A program made the position numbers and the translations under genes. DNA of 64,000 nt, from assembly GCA_009780915.1 (NCBI GenBank), contig WQZD01000010.1, positions 1 to 64,000 on the forward strand, written 5' to 3'. The notes beneath the pieces are model-generated. The model saw nothing but the letters and a program-made list of their open reading frames with translations, made no database searches and was not told where the DNA came from. Shown in pieces: positions 36,832 through 44,625 of the stretch. This DNA comes from Propionibacteriaceae bacterium (GTDB lineage Bacteria > Actinomycetota > Actinomycetes > Propionibacteriales > Propionibacteriaceae). Numbering within the stretch: position 1 is the first letter of the stretch; every line of letters starts with the position of its first letter.

Positions 36832-37683
36832 TCAGGGCTGGACGAACTCGATGTCGGGGGCGAAGACCGCGCGGCGTACCGTCCGGCGGAAGGCCGCCAG
36901 CACAGGCGCGCCGACCAAGACGATCAGCACAGTGTTGGCCACAGCCCTGCCGGTGTCCCACACGGCGGTGGAGGTGATCAGCGTGAACCAGGCGAAGCGG
37001 GTCAGGTTCTCCAGCAGCGGACCGCCGGGGATGTACGCCAGTTGGGCGTCGGCGCCCATCGACGGGCCGGTGACGAAGGGCCAGAACCACAGGTTCATGA
37101 TGGCCCCGAAGAGGTAGGCCACCACGATCCCGTACACCACGAGCAGGGCTACCTCCGCCTTGCCCCTCACCCATCGCCCGAAGAGGCGGTTCGGCAAGAA
37201 GCCCGCCCCCATGCCGATCCACGCCGACGCCAGCATCTGGAAGGGCATCCACGGCCCCACTCCGGCGGTGAGCAGGGCGGACGCGAACATGGAGGTGCAG
37301 CCCAAGACGAAGCCGAACCCCGGGCCGAAGACCCTCCCGGCCAGGATGAGGAGGAAGAACACGGTCTCGATCCCGCCGGTCCCCGCCCCTAGGGGGCGCA
37401 GGGCCGCGTTGATGGCGGAGAGGACTCCCAGGATGGCCAGGGCTTTGGCGTCGATCCCCTTCTCCGAGATTTGCGCCAAGACGAGGAAGATCAGCAGGGG
37501 CAGCAGGGCGACGAAGATGAAGGGCGAGGCGTCCCCCAGACCGCTCGGCGAGGGGGCGGCGACGAACAGGGGCCACGCGAACATGCCGAGACCCGCCACG
37601 GTCAGGACGGTGAGCATCAGCGCGGACTTCCACTCCAACGGCACAGGCCGGTCGTCCAGGGTCAGGGGTGCGCGCCGGGTCAC
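36832..37683 (-). CDS. ECF transporter S component, predicted cobalamin-specific
   Basis: 283 residues from GTG 37683, overlapping the ATPase stop by GTGA. Six or so membrane helices are present, with a short basic N-terminus and an aromatic/Gly-rich centre (VFGPGFGFVLGCTSMFASALLTAGVGPWMPFQMLASAWIG is typical of this S-component branch, here cited only in part). S components bind the vitamin and topple in the membrane to release it. The substrate assignment rests on the operon's cobalamin riboswitch and transcobalamin-like partners, not on residues. It is last gene of the five-gene operon. Confidence 0.85.
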   Translation of the reverse strand: MTRRAPLTLDDRPVPLEWKSALMLTVLTVAGLGMFAWPLFVAAPSPSGLGDASPFIFVALLPLLIFLVLAQISEKGIDAKALAILGVLSAINAALRPLGAGTGGIETVFFLLILAGRVFGPGFGFVLGCTSMFASALLTAGVGPWMPFQMLASAWIGMGAGFLPNRLFGRWVRGKAEVALLVVYGIVVAYLFGAIMNLWFWPFVTGPSMGADAQLAYIPGGPLLENLTRFAWFTLITSTAVWDTGRAVANTVLIVLVGAPVLAAFRRTVRRAVFAPDIEFVQP

Positions 37684-39425
37684 GAGCGGTCCCCCGCCCC
37701 TGGGTCGAGGTCGATCTCGTGCAGCGCCTGGTCCACTTGATAGGGGGTCAACCAACGCATGGGGTGGAGCACTTTGGCCACCTGGGGGGCGAACAGGGCG
37801 GAGGTGCCCAGGACCTCGGCGGCGCTGCCGGTGTGGATGACCTCGCCCGCCGCCATGACGATGATCTGGTCGGCCACTTCGGCGGCGAACTCGACGTCGT
37901 GCGTGACCACGGCCACCGCCCGGCCGTCACCGGCCATCTCGGCCAGGATCTGCGCCAATGTGGCTTTCGCCGGGTAGTCCAGGCCCCGGGTGGGCTCGTC
38001 CAAGAGGATGGCATGGGGGCGGGCGGTCAACTGGATGGCCAGCACCAGGCAGAGCTTCTGGCCCTCGGACAGGTCGCGCGGATGGGTGGCGGGGTCGATG
38101 GTGGGCGCCAGAGCGTCCACGATCCTGCGGCACAGCCCCGGCTCGCACCCGCTCTCCGCGTCGGCGGCCTGGCACTCCTGGTCGACGGTCGGCAGATAGA
38201 GCAGGTCGGCGGCGCTCTGGGGGACCAACCGCACGAGGTCCCGCACCTGGTCGGCGGGGACGTCGCCCAACCCGACCCCGTCGACGAAGAAGGCGCCGGA
38301 GTCGAGCTTCTGCACCCCTGTCAGGGCCCACAGCAGGGTCGATTTCCCCGACCCGTTCCTGCCCATCACCACGGTGATGGCGCCCGCGGGGAAGGACACG
38401 GACACATCTTTCACCGCGTGGACAGGCCCGTACGACACGCTCAGGCCCTCCACCTGCACGCCCGCGGGTCGCGACCCGTCGCGACGGCGGCCCCGGGAAT
38501 GACGCCGTCTCGCGGCGACGGGCGTGTCGACCCCTTCGCTCAGCGCCAGCCGGACCGAGGACTTCCCCTCGGCGGGTGGGATACGCGGCCATCGCTGCGG
38601 GTCGACTCCGTCCACGGCCTGTCGTAACCCGTCGGCCATGCGACGAGCTTCGCGCACGGACAGGGGCACCTGGTCGAACCCGGCCCGTCGTCCGAGATCC
38701 ACCACGGGGGGGACGAGGGGGCTGATCGCCATGACCTCGCGCGTCGGCCCGTCGATCACCCTTCCGGTCCCGTCCAGCAGGAGCATGCGGTCGGCGTACC
38801 CCGCCACCCTCTCCAGGCGATGCTCGGCGACGATGACGGTCAGCCCGATGTCGTGGACCAGGCGCAGCAGAGCGGCCAGCACCTCCTCGGCCGAGACGGG
38901 GTCCAAGGCGGAGGTGGGCTCGTCGAGGACGAGCACCCGTGCCCCCGTGGCGAGCACCGATCCGATGGCGACTCGCTGCTGCTGCCCGCCGGACAAGGTG
39001 CGCAAGGGACGAGAGCGTAGATCCGCCAGACCGAGGATGTCCAGCGTCTCCTCGACACGGGTCCTCATGGCCTGCGGGCCGATCGCGAGTTGCTCCATGC
39101 CGTAGGCCAACTCCTCCTCGACCGTGTCGGTGACGAACCCCGCCAGGGGATCCTGACTGACCACGCCCACCATGTCGGCGAGGTCGCGGGGAGGGTGGGT
39201 CGCGGTGTCGAGGCCGTTCACACGCACCCGCCCGGTCACGATCCCGCCGGTGAAGTGGGGCACGTGCCCGTTGATGGCGCCGAGCAAGGTCGATTTCCCC
39301 GATCCGGTGCGGCCAGCCACCAGGACCAGCTCGCCGTCGGGGATGTGGATGTCGACGTCGCGCAGGACCAGCCGTGCCCGAGGGTCGGCGGTGTAGCGGA
39401 TCGACACATGGTCGACATCGATCAT
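37680..39425 (-). CDS. ECF transporter fused ATPase subunit (A-A')
   Basis: 581 residues from ATG 39425, overlapping the ecfT stop by 4 bp. It carries two ATPase domains. The first has GRTGSGKST, TLSGGQQQRVAIG and VLVLDEPTSALDP. The second has GRNGSGKST, DLSEGQKLCLVLA (G to E in the signature) and ILLDEPTRGLDYP. A basic linker (~residues 290-310) joins them. It powers the importer with EcfT. Fused A-A' proteins are known in ECF systems dedicated to one vitamin. Confidence 0.92.
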   Translation of the reverse strand: MIDVDHVSIRYTADPRARLVLRDVDIHIPDGELVLVAGRTGSGKSTLLGAINGHVPHFTGGIVTGRVRVNGLDTATHPPRDLADMVGVVSQDPLAGFVTDTVEEELAYGMEQLAIGPQAMRTRVEETLDILGLADLRSRPLRTLSGGQQQRVAIGSVLATGARVLVLDEPTSALDPVSAEEVLAALLRLVHDIGLTVIVAEHRLERVAGYADRMLLLDGTGRVIDGPTREVMAISPLVPPVVDLGRRAGFDQVPLSVREARRMADGLRQAVDGVDPQRWPRIPPAEGKSSVRLALSEGVDTPVAARRRHSRGRRRDGSRPAGVQVEGLSVSYGPVHAVKDVSVSFPAGAITVVMGRNGSGKSTLLWALTGVQKLDSGAFFVDGVGLGDVPADQVRDLVRLVPQSAADLLYLPTVDQECQAADAESGCEPGLCRRIVDALAPTIDPATHPRDLSEGQKLCLVLAIQLTARPHAILLDEPTRGLDYPAKATLAQILAEMAGDGRAVAVVTHDVEFAAEVADQIIVMAAGEVIHTGSAAEVLGTSALFAPQVAKVLHPMRWLTPYQVDQALHEIDLDPGAGDRS

Positions 39426-40585
39426 CGTGGAGCACCTCGTAACGTCAATGGTTGTCTGTCGGGGGCGTGGTCGGCTGTCACAGTCACAGACCCCGAGGGC
39501 CAGCGCTGCGGGGACGGCGCCAGGGCGGCTGGAACTAGCAGGACGAGCACAGCGAGCAGGGCGCCCACGCTGACCGGGGGCACGCCGAGGGGCTGCGTCG
39601 GAGGGTAGGCGACCAGGGGTTGGGCGATGGACACGACGACCATCCCCACGCAGGCCAGGATCCCCGATCCCAGGACCACCCATTCGGGAGCGGCCATCGG
39701 GTCGGGACGGTACCTCGTGCGATGCGCCCGCGCGCCGGACAGCTTCAGTCCCGCCACGGCGACCACCACGCCGACGGCGACCATCGAGGCGCCCGCCCAC
39801 ACGGGGGTCACCCCGGTGTCGAGCAGCCCGTACGCGCCCACGCACACGGCCAGGGACCCCAGGATCAGCAAGGCGGAGGTGGCGCGTCGCGTCGCGGGAC
39901 TGACCGGCGCGGAGCGCCCGTACCCCCGGGAATCCATGGCCCCGGCGAGGATCAACGAGCGGTCCAAGGCGTCGGAGAGGACGGGCATGGCGACGTTGCG
40001 GATCAGATGCGCGCCCTTGCCGGTCTCCGCGCGCAGTTGGCGCGCCCGTCCGACCCGTACCAAGGACTCCGCCAGTTGCGGGAACACGGAGATGGCGATG
40101 ACGACGACCGCCCCCCACTCGTACAAGGCCCCTGGGACGGCCGCCAGCAGTCTCTTGGGATTGGCCAGCGCGTTGGCCGCGCCGACGGCCACCACCATGG
40201 CCGCCAACTGGAGCGCCGATCCGCCGGCGCCGACGAGCGCCTCGGCTGACACGGGCCCCAACAATCTCACAGACGGAAGCCCCGGAATGGTCACGACCGG
40301 AAGCCGGAGCACCACCGTGGGCCCGGCGGCCGAGAACAGGACACGGAACCCCACCCGCAGGACGATGATGAAGCACGCAAGATACAGGTACATCCGAAAG
40401 GCCATCGCCCACGGCGCGGACGTGCGCCGGACCTGGACCGTGACACAACAGATGGCGATGAGCAGGCCGAGCAGGATGGGATTGACCGTGCGCGACGCGA
40501 CCACCGCGCACCCGATCGCCCAGCCCCACCACGCCCCCGGGTGAAGAGAGCGCGGCATGAAGAACCTTTTCACCACGGATGTCAT
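39422..40585 (-). CDS. ecfT: ECF transporter transmembrane T component
   Basis: 387 residues from ATG 40585, overlapping the upstream stop (ATGA); the much longer open frame beyond is non-coding shadow. Hydrophobic segments cover most of the chain. The coupling-helix signatures appear as LVRVGRARQLRAETG and ILAGAMDSRGYGRS, the A-R-x type motifs that contact the ATPases. It is the scaffold between A-A' and the S component. Confidence 0.9.
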   Translation of the reverse strand: MTSVVKRFFMPRSLHPGAWWGWAIGCAVVASRTVNPILLGLLIAICCVTVQVRRTSAPWAMAFRMYLYLACFIIVLRVGFRVLFSAAGPTVVLRLPVVTIPGLPSVRLLGPVSAEALVGAGGSALQLAAMVVAVGAANALANPKRLLAAVPGALYEWGAVVVIAISVFPQLAESLVRVGRARQLRAETGKGAHLIRNVAMPVLSDALDRSLILAGAMDSRGYGRSAPVSPATRRATSALLILGSLAVCVGAYGLLDTGVTPVWAGASMVAVGVVVAVAGLKLSGARAHRTRYRPDPMAAPEWVVLGSGILACVGMVVVSIAQPLVAYPPTQPLGVPPVSVGALLAVLVLLVPAALAPSPQRWPSGSVTVTADHAPDRQPLTLRGAPR

Positions 40586-41535
40586 GGTACGCCATGACGT
40601 CGTCGGAACCAGGCCACCCCTGCGGCGGCCCCGCCGATCAGGACGGTCAGCGCCACCCCCGCGCCCGCGCCCCACCGATAGTCTCGGGGGGACACGTCCG
40701 CGTCGTCGGTCGGGCCAGGAGTCGCCTGTGCGCCCGCCTGGGGGGACGAGGAGGGGGACGAGGAGGGCGGCATGCCCGCCGACTCGGAGCCGGAGGGCGT
40801 GTCCGTCTCGGCCGGGTCTCCGGTCGGGGCGACCGCCGACGAGCCGGGCTCGGAGGTAGCGCCGCCCGACGAGGGGCCCTCGGGACGGGAGGGGGCCGGT
40901 GGCACGGGAGGGGGTTCGGGCGCCTGTGACGTGGCGGGGGCGGGCTCGGGGGGCGGGGTCGCCCACATGCTCGGCGTCACGCGAGGGACGGGCGCTTGCC
41001 CGAATCCTCGTCCCAGCGAGAAGGACCACCCTTCCCACTGTCCGACAACGACCGCCCGTGTGGAGGGGCCTTGCGTGGCGTACGTCCAGGAGCCGCCCTG
41101 GGGCGCCCACCAGAACGACCAGTACGCGGTCGCCGGCGGAGTGCTGACGCAGGACTCGACGTACGTCCCCCCGTTCGGGAGGGTGATGACCTCAGACTCC
41201 CCGGGACGGGAATCGATCCGGCACACGAACCCGATCCCGTCTCGGGCCGTCCCTTGGACGGATGCCCCGGACGCCCGCAGGGCGTCGAGGGACGTGCTTC
41301 CCGCCGACAGGCCGGAGACGCAGGTCGTCCTGGTCCCCTCGCCCAGACCCTGGAAGTCGACCACCACCGTGACCGCGCCCGAGTCCGTGGCCGCGCAGGC
41401 GCCCGGACGCGCATGGACGCCCGCCAACGGCAGGGCGCGAACAGTCCTGTCGGCTGCGGGGACGACAGAGGGTGGAGGGCCGGCGGCGGCGACTACCGTC
41501 ATCACCGCCGCCAGCCCGATGAGCAGGTGTCTCAC
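40582..41535 (-). CDS. Exported DUF4430 (transcobalamin-C-like) membrane-anchored protein
   Basis: 317 residues from GTG 41535 (GTGA overlap with the previous stop); ATG 41550 is possible. The signal peptide is VRHLLIGLAAVMTVVAAAG. Residues ~45-165 form a DUF4430-like domain (AVTVVVDFQGLGEGTRTTC, then YWSFWWAPQGGSWTYATQG), related to the beta domain of transcobalamin and intrinsic factor. A long Pro/Ser/Gly-rich spacer follows, then a C-terminal membrane helix and RRRHG. It probably holds B12 at the surface and hands it to the ECF importer (inference). Confidence 0.8.
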   Translation of the reverse strand: MRHLLIGLAAVMTVVAAAGPPPSVVPAADRTVRALPLAGVHARPGACAATDSGAVTVVVDFQGLGEGTRTTCVSGLSAGSTSLDALRASGASVQGTARDGIGFVCRIDSRPGESEVITLPNGGTYVESCVSTPPATAYWSFWWAPQGGSWTYATQGPSTRAVVVGQWEGWSFSLGRGFGQAPVPRVTPSMWATPPPEPAPATSQAPEPPPVPPAPSRPEGPSSGGATSEPGSSAVAPTGDPAETDTPSGSESAGMPPSSSPSSSPQAGAQATPGPTDDADVSPRDYRWGAGAGVALTVLIGGAAAGVAWFRRRHGVP

Positions 41536-43316
41536 TGGTGCAGCGCCCATCGACGCAGGAGGACGACTCCCCCGAGCGTCGAGATGACAGCACACATCGG
41601 CATGGCACTGCTCGGCGCCGCCACCGATCCGCCCGTCGGCGCAGTGATGGCGGCAGAAGGCGCCGACGAGGTGTCATCCGTCGGGTCCGTCCCACTGGGA
41701 GTGGTGGGTTTCTCCGACGGATCCTCAGGCGCCTCGCAGGCGGGGACGGGAAGGCCCCGGTCCATGCCTGTCACAGACAGGGACGCGAACTGCGGACCGC
41801 CCAGTCCCAGGACGGCTTGGACGGACGCACGCAGGAACTGCGCCGCCGTCCCCGGCTGCAGACCGTCGGTGAGGGCCGAGTCGAACCCCGCGCGGTCGTA
41901 GGCGATGGCCCCGAGATCCGTGGGGGCCACGGATGCGTCGCCCGTCCCCAGCGCCTCGCAGGTGACCTGCAGGGCGCCGATGAAACCGGCCGCGTCGGCG
42001 GCGGCTTCGGTGTTCGTCTGGAGAGCTTGGGCGGCCAGACCCGTGCTGTTGGCGTTGGCCACACCGAAGCTGGAGAACCCGCCCGTCGCGTCCTGTTGGC
42101 TCGCCAACCACTGCTCGGAGGTCGCGATCGCCGGGTCGTCCGCAGGCACGGAGGCCGACCGCAGAGCTTGGACCACCATGGCCGTCGAATCGACGTCCGG
42201 GGCCGAGCAATCGGGCGACCACCCGTAGGACCCCTGGTTCGCCGACGAGGGGTCTGTGCACTGCTGGCGCGTCATCCACGCCGTGGCTTGCGCGGGGACG
42301 CCGCCGCTCGTCCTCGCCAGGGCCAGCATGGCCAAGGGGTGGGAGAAGACGGAATCGGTCCCGCTGCGCCCGAAGGAGCCGTCGGCGTTCATCACCGATC
42401 TCAGGTCGGCGAGGAGGTTGCGCGTCCCGCCCTCGACCGGGAAGGCGGCGGGGTCGAGCCCAGCCACCTCCAGCCCCAGGACCGTCTTGGCGATCTTCGC
42501 CCAGGCGGTCGAGACGTCGGCCTGGGGGCCGATGTACGCCGTCCCCGAGGCGTAGACCTTCTGCGCGGTCGCCATCAGTTGGTCCGCGCCGACCCCGGAG
42601 GAGGCCAAGGCGAAGATGGCGTCGAGGGTGAGGCCCCAGTCCGGGGACGCTCCCCCCAGGGCGACGTCGCCCGTGGCCGCCAGTTGCGAGGCGATCCAGG
42701 CGGCGGCCCATCCCGCGTCAGGAGAGCCCTGCGCGGCCGACGGCGGCGCGGGAATCATCACGTCCCCGCGCGGCAGGTCGCTCAACGCCGGAGTCGGCAC
42801 GCACACCGACGGGTCGTCCATGGCGTCCGTGTAGCCCGGCATCGAGTCGGCCAACATGCAGTCCCACGAGTCGAAGACCCGGAAGAGATAGGCCTGGTCG
42901 GTGGAGACGGGCCCGTCCATGGCCCCCACTTGCGCCATACGCCACGCGTCGCCCGGTAGCCCGGACGCGGTGCCGGACGTGGTCGAGGTGTAGAGCGCCC
43001 ACCAGCCTTGCCAGCCGTACAGGACTGCGGGATCGATGCCGTCGATGGCCGTCACGAAGCCGCTGGCGTCGGTGACGACGAACCCGGCTTTCTGGAAGGC
43101 GTCCAACACGGTGCCGGAGGCGCCGGGGGCGCACCTGACATCGGCCTTCGTCCCGTCCAGGGAGTAGTCGACCACGACAGTGACGCCTTGGCCCGGTTGG
43201 CATGCGGCGCCTGTGACGTCGGCACCGTCGGCCCGTGCCGACAATGGCGCGAGCAGACCGAGCAATGAGACAGATAAGGCAGCCGCGATAGGGACTGCCT
43301 TAGAGAGAATTTTCAT
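41532..43316 (-). CDS. Transcobalamin/intrinsic-factor-like exported B12-binding protein (predicted)
   Basis: 594 residues from ATG 43316. After the signal peptide (AAALSVSLLGLLAPLSARA) comes a DUF4430-like domain (~40-150; VTVVVDYSLDGTKADVRC, GWQGWWALYTSTTSG, YLFRVFDSWDC). Next is an alpha/alpha-barrel of prenyltransferase/squalene-cyclase-like repeats (~205-520). These show the helical-pair motifs NADGSFGRSG, GSYGWSPDCSAPDVDSTAMVVQAL and GGFSSFGVANANSTGLAAQAL. A Thr/Pro-rich stalk and C-terminal hydrophobic anchor with RRW follow. Human intrinsic factor has the same two folds in reverse order. The riboswitch just upstream and the ECF genes downstream support B12 capture. Catalysis is unlikely, since no cyclase DXDD motif is visible. 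Confidence 0.85.
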   Translation of the reverse strand: MKILSKAVPIAAALSVSLLGLLAPLSARADGADVTGAACQPGQGVTVVVDYSLDGTKADVRCAPGASGTVLDAFQKAGFVVTDASGFVTAIDGIDPAVLYGWQGWWALYTSTTSGTASGLPGDAWRMAQVGAMDGPVSTDQAYLFRVFDSWDCMLADSMPGYTDAMDDPSVCVPTPALSDLPRGDVMIPAPPSAAQGSPDAGWAAAWIASQLAATGDVALGGASPDWGLTLDAIFALASSGVGADQLMATAQKVYASGTAYIGPQADVSTAWAKIAKTVLGLEVAGLDPAAFPVEGGTRNLLADLRSVMNADGSFGRSGTDSVFSHPLAMLALARTSGGVPAQATAWMTRQQCTDPSSANQGSYGWSPDCSAPDVDSTAMVVQALRSASVPADDPAIATSEQWLASQQDATGGFSSFGVANANSTGLAAQALQTNTEAAADAAGFIGALQVTCEALGTGDASVAPTDLGAIAYDRAGFDSALTDGLQPGTAAQFLRASVQAVLGLGGPQFASLSVTGMDRGLPVPACEAPEDPSEKPTTPSGTDPTDDTSSAPSAAITAPTGGSVAAPSSAMPMCAVISTLGGVVLLRRWALHQ

Positions 43317-43324
43317 TCATTATT

Positions 43325-43362
43325 CTTTCTGTGAGCGATCCGAAAGAGAACGTCACAGAAAG
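43325..43362 (-). promoter_or_regulatory. Hairpin overlapping the translation start region (riboswitch expression platform)
   Basis: CTTTCTGTGA and TCACAGAAAG form a perfect 10-bp stem with an 18-nt loop. The stem ends eight bases before the ATG at 43316 and includes the only purine-rich ribosome-site candidate (AGAAAG). It probably blocks translation when formed, downstream of the cobalamin aptamer. Confidence 0.65.
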
Positions 43363-43384
43363 TCAGGGATGATTTCCGACGCCC

Positions 43385-43535
43385 CTCCACAGACCTCGAT
43401 GGTGGGAAACGCTCCTTACCAGTCAGGTATCCGGACTCATCGTCGACGTGCGACGATACACCGTTGCGGGTCAGTGTCGGGATTCAACCGACTTCCCCTG
43501 TCTGGGCAGGTTATTGAGTTGTGAGGCTCACACTA
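43385..43535 (-). promoter_or_regulatory. Cobalamin riboswitch
   Basis: On the minus strand the conserved cobalamin-aptamer core is present in order: GGGGAAGTCGG with the paired CCCGAC (43497-43476), ACCCGCAACGGTG (43470-43459), and the B12 box GGATACCTG (43432-43424) preceded by GAGTCC. It starts at the dapC stop and leads directly into the B12-uptake operon. Boundaries are approximate. Confidence 0.92.
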
Positions 43536-44625
43536 GCACACGCGCGGCGGCGGCGGCGACACGTTCATCACTGGCTGTCAACGCGATTCTGACGTGGTTG
43601 GCGCCCGCGGCGCCGTAGAAGTCCCCAGGGGCGACGACGATCCCCCGCTCGGCCAGCCAATGCGCGGTCGCCCGACCGGATTCGAAGCGCGTGGCCCACA
43701 GGTAGAGGCCGCCGTGAGAGTCGTCGATGCGGAACCCCGCGCGTGTCAGGGCCTGGGCGAGCAGGGCACGACGAGCGAGGTAGCGCGCGCGCTGCTCCTC
43801 GACGTGGGCGGTGTCGCCCAGCAGCGCCGTCATGGCCGCCTGCACGGGCGTGGACACCATCATGCCCAGATGCTTGCGAAGGCCGACCAGGGCCGTCACA
43901 ACCTGCTCGTCCCCCACCACGAAGCCGGCCCGATAGCCGGCCAGGTTCGACCTCTTCGACAAGGAGTACGCGCCCAGGATCCCGTGGAGGCTGCCCTGGT
44001 TGACCCGGGCGTCGAGGACGGACACCGGCTCGGCGTCCCACCCGAACTCCCCGTAGCACTCGTCGGCGACGAGCAGGGCCGACTTGGCCCGGGCGTACTC
44101 GACCCATGCGGCCGTCTCGGCGAGGGAGTCGACCTTCCCGGTGGGATTGGACGGGGAGTTGGTCCACACGAGCACGGGCGACTCGTCGGCCACGTCGTGC
44201 GGGGTGGACGCGGTGACGATCCGCGCTCCGGCCATGAGGGCGCCCACCGCATACGTGGGGTACGCGATCGCGGGGATCACCACGGTGTCGCCGGGGCGTA
44301 CCCCCATCAGAAGCGGAAGCAAGCCGACGATCTCCTTGGTCCCGATCACGGGCATGACGGATTTGGGCGTCATCGCCGGCGCGGACCAGCGGGTGGCCAT
44401 GTACGTGATGACAGCCTCGTGGAGGGCCGGCGTGCCCCACACCGTCGGGTATCCGGGGGCGTCGGCCGCGCGGGTCAACGCCTCACGGGCGATCATGGGG
44501 GTGGGGTCGACCGGGGTGCCCACGCTCAGATCGCAGACGCCGTCGGGATGGGACGCCGCCAAAGCGACATCGTCGGCGATGGTGTCCCAGGGGAAGTCCG
44601 GCAGGGCCGGGGTACGGATGGTCAT
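43528..44625 (-). CDS. dapC: Succinyldiaminopimelate transaminase
   Basis: 365 residues, class I/II PLP aminotransferase. Motifs in order are CDLSVGTPVDPTP, the NSPSNPTG substrate/PLP block near residue 160, ADECYGEFGW, the PLP-binding SLSKRSNLAGYRAGFV with Lys near 230, and the C-terminal HVRIALTAS arginine. It matches the actinobacterial DapC group in lysine/peptidoglycan synthesis. It is coupled to fdxA upstream (48-bp gap), an order often seen in the phylum. Confidence 0.92.
   Translation of the reverse strand: MTIRTPALPDFPWDTIADDVALAASHPDGVCDLSVGTPVDPTPMIAREALTRAADAPGYPTVWGTPALHEAVITYMATRWSAPAMTPKSVMPVIGTKEIVGLLPLLMGVRPGDTVVIPAIAYPTYAVGALMAGARIVTASTPHDVADESPVLVWTNSPSNPTGKVDSLAETAAWVEYARAKSALLVADECYGEFGWDAEPVSVLDARVNQGSLHGILGAYSLSKRSNLAGYRAGFVVGDEQVVTALVGLRKHLGMMVSTPVQAAMTALLGDTAHVEEQRARYLARRALLAQALTRAGFRIDDSHGGLYLWATRFESGRATAHWLAERGIVVAPGDFYGAAGANHVRIALTASDERVAAAAARVLV

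Follow-up and report, generated by a model that had tools for sequence, protein, structure and literature searches.

Five genes that follow a cobalamin riboswitch, two of them encoding exported proteins reminiscent of the vitamin B12 carriers of animals and three of them a transporter of the energy-coupling factor (ECF) type, raise the question of what such an operon does for its host. It lies on the minus strand of a 64,000-nucleotide stretch of DNA, referred to here as the window (positions 1 to 64,000 of contig WQZD01000010.1, assembly GCA_009780915.1, Propionibacteriaceae bacterium), and its function is, in our view, very probably the uptake of cobamides (vitamin B12). Behind the riboswitch come gene A (41532-43316; 594 aa), gene B (40582-41535; 317 aa), ecfT (39422-40585; 387 aa), the gene for a fused A-A' ECF ATPase (37680-39425; 581 aa) and that for a substrate-specific (S) component (36832-37683; 283 aa). 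An earlier note, made from the sequence alone, had listed these five genes in this order and joined by 4-bp overlaps, and open reading frame (ORF) analysis agrees with it when the starts are placed at 43316 (ATG), 41535 (GTG), 40585 (ATG), 39425 (ATG) and 37683 (GTG): every stop/start junction is then a 4-bp overlap, ATGA or GTGA. Because further in-frame starts exist, the overlaps depend on this choice, with B and the S component beginning at GTG.

Relationship of proteins A and B to intrinsic factor

Protein A is predicted to be exported and to comprise a DUF4430-like domain resembling the beta domain of intrinsic factor (approximately residues 31-155; 42852-43226), an alpha/alpha barrel (approximately residues 195-525; 41742-42734) and a C-terminal helix (residues 578-593; 41538-41585), which the structure model and its hydrophobic sequence suggest to be a membrane anchor. 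The mean predicted local distance difference test score (pLDDT) of the AlphaFold model is 75.9, with most of the barrel above 90. When a profile of 76 barrel sequences was compared by hhalign with the alpha domain of intrinsic factor and transcobalamin (the vertebrate sequences being PDB chains), the two aligned over 229 columns with a score of 48.7 (P 4.2e-6) and about 17% identity across the aligned region; the maximum score from 100 column shuffles was 18.3, and the negative control against the beta domain gave P 0.39. Homology of the barrel to the intrinsic-factor alpha domain, as proposed in the earlier note, is thus supported by profile comparison. In the alignment VDSTAM pairs with VDTGAM and NANSTGLAAQAL pairs with DIYSTGLAMQAL, while D376 of A aligns to D153 of intrinsic factor and Q500 to Q252; N421/N423 lie at or near D204, N421 pairing with D204 only if a gap is set beside it. 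We take D153, D204 and Q252 to be alpha-domain contacts for B12, and their counterparts are conserved in the barrel family of A, being D in 75/76, N in 71/76 and Q in 72/76 homologues. NCBIfam SCO2321_fam also matches the barrel, below its curated cut-off.

Protein B, likewise predicted to be exported, has a DUF4430-like domain (approximately residues 41-190; 40966-41415) followed by a Pro/Ser-rich stalk and a C-terminal helix. The N-terminal-type domains of A and the B family are clearly matched to one another (hhalign P 1.1e-11), and an alignment of 69 DUF4430-like sequences from both matched a set of 27 Pfam-positive domains from DUF4430 loci with P 1.1e-6 (A-type subset, 2.1e-5; B-type subset, 2.5e-6). 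The beta domain of human and bovine intrinsic factor and transcobalamin matched the same set with P 5.9e-10, and negative controls gave 0.55 and 0.81. When the B model was searched by fold against 350,542 PDB chains, the highest-ranked match was intrinsic factor (2pmv), and of the 15 best, 14 were intrinsic factor, transcobalamin or 3u7z, a DUF4430-like protein of Ruminococcus gnavus. NCBIfam SCO2322_fam matches B below its curated cut-off, and 51 of the 69 related domains. On these profiles and models, the small domains of A and B are divergent DUF4430 relatives, and the kinship with the intrinsic-factor/transcobalamin beta domain that had been claimed for them stands by way of the DUF4430 profile and the fold ranking of B. 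A and B may bind cobalamin with high affinity.

The transporter module, the riboswitch and their recurrence

The EcfT-like protein, an energy-coupling membrane protein of the CbiQ family, is recognized by Pfam CbiQ below the cut-off (E 6e-4), and its position and similarity are kept in relatives. The fused ATPase has two ABC domains (Pfam ABC_tran twice, E 1.2e-45) and matches TIGR04520 and TIGR04521, both below cut-off. The S component exceeds the cut-off of PF12822 (39.9 against 30.7 bits), is not a CbiM match, and has 15 homologues of 45-64% identity from operons of the same kind. Judged by these family matches, EcfT, the two ATPase domains and the S component make up a complete ECF transporter, as the earlier note had it. 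The riboswitch said to head the operon was found at 43426-43497 (minus strand), where cmscan places an RF00174 aptamer of 38.3 bits, above the Rfam cut-off of 31.5 (E 3.7e-6), with a core that can be aligned with the leaders of relatives.

The same association recurs across the Actinomycetota. A scan of a genome collection with a six-sequence barrel alignment fetched, by barrel homology alone, 100 loci, of which 67 have the order barrel-B-T-AA'-S on one strand; these come from Propionibacteriaceae, Micromonospora, Amycolatopsis, Saccharothrix, Streptomyces and others. Of 13 barrel loci within the family, 12 are preceded by a cobalamin-clan match with E<0.1, in some cases a weak one, and the remaining locus, L018, has a leader that can be aligned with theirs. 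For the phylum at large, at least 30 of 60 sampled barrel loci have RF00174 on their own strand and no more than 1.2 kb upstream, and RF01689 adds three, giving a cobalamin riboswitch upstream of at least 33 of the 60; these counts are lower bounds, and the chance expectation, estimated on the basis of roughly five riboswitches in a genome of 5 Mb, is approximately 0.04 in 60, related genomes not being independent. Another six of the 60 barrels sit 7-8 kb downstream of a same-strand riboswitch with a Pfam DUF4430 gene between. A riboswitch for a different vitamin, for which 19 loci were searched against all 4227 Rfam families, was not found tied to the operon, only cobalamin riboswitches being returned. 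An FMN (flavin mononucleotide) riboswitch at L021:11053-11196, some 2 kb away from the barrel gene, seems to belong to another gene.

The host genome (99.4% complete) contains two cobalamin riboswitch matches only, each directly upstream of one of its two barrel genes. The second match, of 26.1 bits and below cut-off, precedes the sole barrel paralogue, at a locus (L017:2903-4896, host contig C5) where a lipoprotein-like DUF4430-like gene comes after a barrel gene that lacks the N-terminal domain. The proteins with a B12-binding domain in this host are of the size of MetH (1180 aa) and of a mutase (723 aa), and single-marker profile searches of the genome did not find CbiC, CobS or CbiM (PF01891). 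These absences suggest that the host neither synthesizes nor finishes corrinoids, and that it has no cobalt importer of the CbiM type. CbiC is also lacking from 11 of the 12 family genomes with a barrel; CobS is present in some relatives, so ligand specificity may vary.

The arrangement of the two domains is itself variable. In the window protein and its near relatives the DUF4430-like domain is N-terminal to the barrel; in L028, L133, L148, L149 and L150 the barrel is the first of the two, and most actinobacteria at a greater distance have them on separate proteins. Two barrel plus DUF4430-like proteins carry wall-anchoring domains, CWB2 at L148:4108-6384 and SLH at L150:3561-5837, which supports a surface location of barrel proteins. 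At L028:7181-10308, two consecutive barrel genes have their own riboswitches of different classes (RF00174, then AdoCbl-II), and in the product of the second the barrel precedes a DUF4430-like domain. In one distant actinobacterial lineage (L139:1441-10749, one of the six loci with a riboswitch 7-8 kb away), a single strong riboswitch (110.7 bits) has Pfam-positive DUF4430, T, ATPase, S and barrel genes downstream of it, on its own strand. Giant proteins of some 2500 aa, in which the barrel is close to the C-terminus, are encoded directly under a cobalamin riboswitch at L023:3383-11100 and L024:4758-12622, where no transporter genes were called alongside; they may be likened to adhesin-like genes of Cutibacterium acnes that are riboswitch-controlled and unexplained (PMC9600381). 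The same gene order as in the window was also seen in L121, on a contig binned in a metagenome-assembled genome of Spirochaetaceae, owing either to transfer or to misbinning.

Competing explanations and a possible mechanism

A number of observations weigh against B12 uptake as the function of the operon or qualify the domain assignments. The Pfam model of DUF4430, PF14478, matches neither A nor B at E<=1 and recognizes 3 of the 69 family domains (best E 0.02); the DUF4430 assignment of the earlier note accordingly holds for a divergent relative, through profile-profile comparison and fold search, and not for a member that Pfam can recognize. Compared directly with the intrinsic-factor beta domain, the DUF4430-like domains score weakly (P 0.02, or 0.004 with the 69-sequence alignment), and their profile gave chance-level matches only against PDB sequences. 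The E-values of the B fold search are weak as well (0.04 to 0.5), so that its evidence lies in the ranking. For the barrel, Pfam reports squalene-cyclase similarity only, at sub-threshold level, the nearest solved structures by profile search of PDB sequences are squalene-hopene cyclases (E 2.8e-28), and Foldseek places terpene cyclases, including drimenyl diphosphate synthase, slightly ahead of transcobalamin; such a lead is expected, since the alpha/alpha barrel is common to both. The profile of the S component matches no solved structure among PDB sequences, CbrT included. About a third of the surveyed barrel loci have no riboswitch among the matches listed, under strict filters, and no transporter genes adjoin the second host locus.

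These cyclase matches are what would speak for protein A being an exported terpene cyclase whose linkage to B12 is incidental. However, the catalytic DXDD motif is absent from all 76 barrel homologues, the position of its obligatory last Asp being occupied by A, S, T, G, Y or V; A also looks exported and anchored, and cobalamin riboswitches and ECF genes recur beside the barrel across the phylum. We therefore give this explanation almost no credence. The earlier note had named two findings that would refute it, a barrel best matching a cyclase with intact catalytic residues and recurrence with the riboswitch of a different vitamin; the missing motif and the Rfam scan of 19 loci speak against both. 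Equally far-fetched is a cobalt importer under riboswitch control, which CbiMNQO often is, even though EcfT is related to CbiQ and cobalt transporters with a B12 riboswitch ahead of them are known (PMC2667541): the host has neither CbiM nor CbiC, the S component belongs with PF12822 and not with CbiM, and the large exported proteins resembling intrinsic factor would be left unexplained.

Two further explanations accept a corrinoid-related ligand. The operon might import a corrinoid precursor or another tetrapyrrole instead of complete cobamides, in line with the uptake of cobinamide by ECF-CbrT (PMC5997447) and with an S component whose sequence matches no solved structure; lacking CobS and CbiC, the host would be unable to finish a precursor, and we regard this explanation as quite unlikely. 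Alternatively, A and B could be surface corrinoid-binding proteins that store, monopolize or sense B12, with the ECF part importing on its own. The second host locus, with its barrel and B-like genes and no transporter, the large barrel proteins of about 2500 aa without transporter genes called alongside, and the ability of characterized importers such as ECF-CbrT to move B12 unaided by a binding protein outside the cell (PMC5997447) are all consistent with this; against it, B and the ECF genes follow the barrel in fixed order in two-thirds of the loci (67/100) and all five window genes are joined by 4-bp overlaps, both of which point to a common function. Storage or sensing apart from transport is in our opinion unlikely, although not negligible.

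Our working model for a B12-uptake operon is as follows. Low intracellular B12 would lead the riboswitch to permit expression of the operon. A and B would be exported and tethered outside the membrane, B12 would be caught between barrel and beta domain, and the captured vitamin would be handed to the S component, EcfT and the double ATPase powering its entry into the cell; how A and B might divide the work between them is part of the same conjecture. A more specific version, which we put forward tentatively and at somewhat less than even chances, is that many actinobacteria have a split intrinsic-factor function, in which a barrel protein joins in trans with a DUF4430-like protein encoded separately, the two enclosing one B12 molecule and docking on the ECF S component. 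Such a two-piece trap of A and B is possible because barrel and DUF4430-like domain are separate in most of the distant actinobacteria. If true, it would give ECF importers, which are known for having no extracellular binding proteins, a dedicated carrier, and the animal B12 carriers would be a fused relative of the bacterial two-piece trap.

Comparison with known B12 carriers, and the operon leader

Animal intrinsic factor, transcobalamin and haptocorrin share with A and B both folds, the alpha/alpha barrel and the DUF4430-like beta domain. In the animal proteins the alpha domain comes before the beta domain, whereas the order is reversed in A and both orders, as well as separate proteins, occur elsewhere. 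A strict parallel with mammalian uptake would be conjectural; the mammalian carriers deliver to an endocytic receptor and not, as is proposed for the window operon, to an ECF importer. Because both domain orders and the split form coexist in bacteria, the finding touches on the origin of the animal carriers. Capture of B12 at the surface before a transporter is also a feature of the Bacteroides BtuG and BtuH proteins, which are surface B12-binding lipoproteins of unrelated folds that hand over to the outer-membrane BtuB channel.

Proteins of this kind were already predicted in 2007. Burroughs et al. (2007; PMC1796856) described bacterial secreted proteins with SLBB and alpha/alpha toroid domains in either order, often with a second SLBB gene and with CbiO/CbiQ in the operon, and predicted B12 scavenging for them in low-GC Gram-positives, planctomycetes and some archaea (euryarchaea). 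In contrast to that clade, the window branch is actinobacterial, lies under the Pfam DUF4430 thresholds, and has a recognizable S component, a fused A-A' ATPase and linkage to a B12 riboswitch. What is new is therefore the divergent actinobacterial variant, its riboswitch linkage, its S component and the residue-level evidence. ECF-CbrT of Lactobacillus delbrueckii is a proven B12 importer that works without an extracellular carrier (PMC5997447). The window operon encodes the same type of importer with an S component predicted to be specific for B12, but this S component has no detectable sequence similarity to a solved one, the ECF module is a dedicated one within the operon, and exported carriers are added; the finding is also relevant to the way in which an extracellular carrier could serve an ECF importer. 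Many Gram-positive bacteria have no assigned B12 import genes, and the operon is a candidate importer for a large actinobacterial set that includes Streptomyces, in which genetic work is tractable. The NCBIfam names SCO2321 and SCO2322 carry no function, and we found no paper on the function of SCO2321-SCO2326; the present analysis ties both families to B12 and gives them a likely role in its uptake.

An aminotransferase-like gene (43528-44625), on the same strand as the operon, lies upstream of the aptamer, whose match begins about 31 nucleotides past its stop. No promoter-like site was found in the gap (43498-43528), which, together with its shortness, suggests that part of the operon's transcription may come from upstream by read-through. 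A terminator-type switch was considered and set aside, no terminator-like site having been found in the leader. A strong hairpin is predicted at 43324-43362, over the presumed ribosome-binding site and start region of A; from a leader alignment judged by eye, it appears not to be shared with relatives. The leader (43317-43425) and those of L017-L025 have two conserved stretches outside the aptamer, CCATCCGTCGAGGTCTGCGGAGG and, immediately 5' of the start codon, GGATCGCTCA, which possibly constitute the expression platform.

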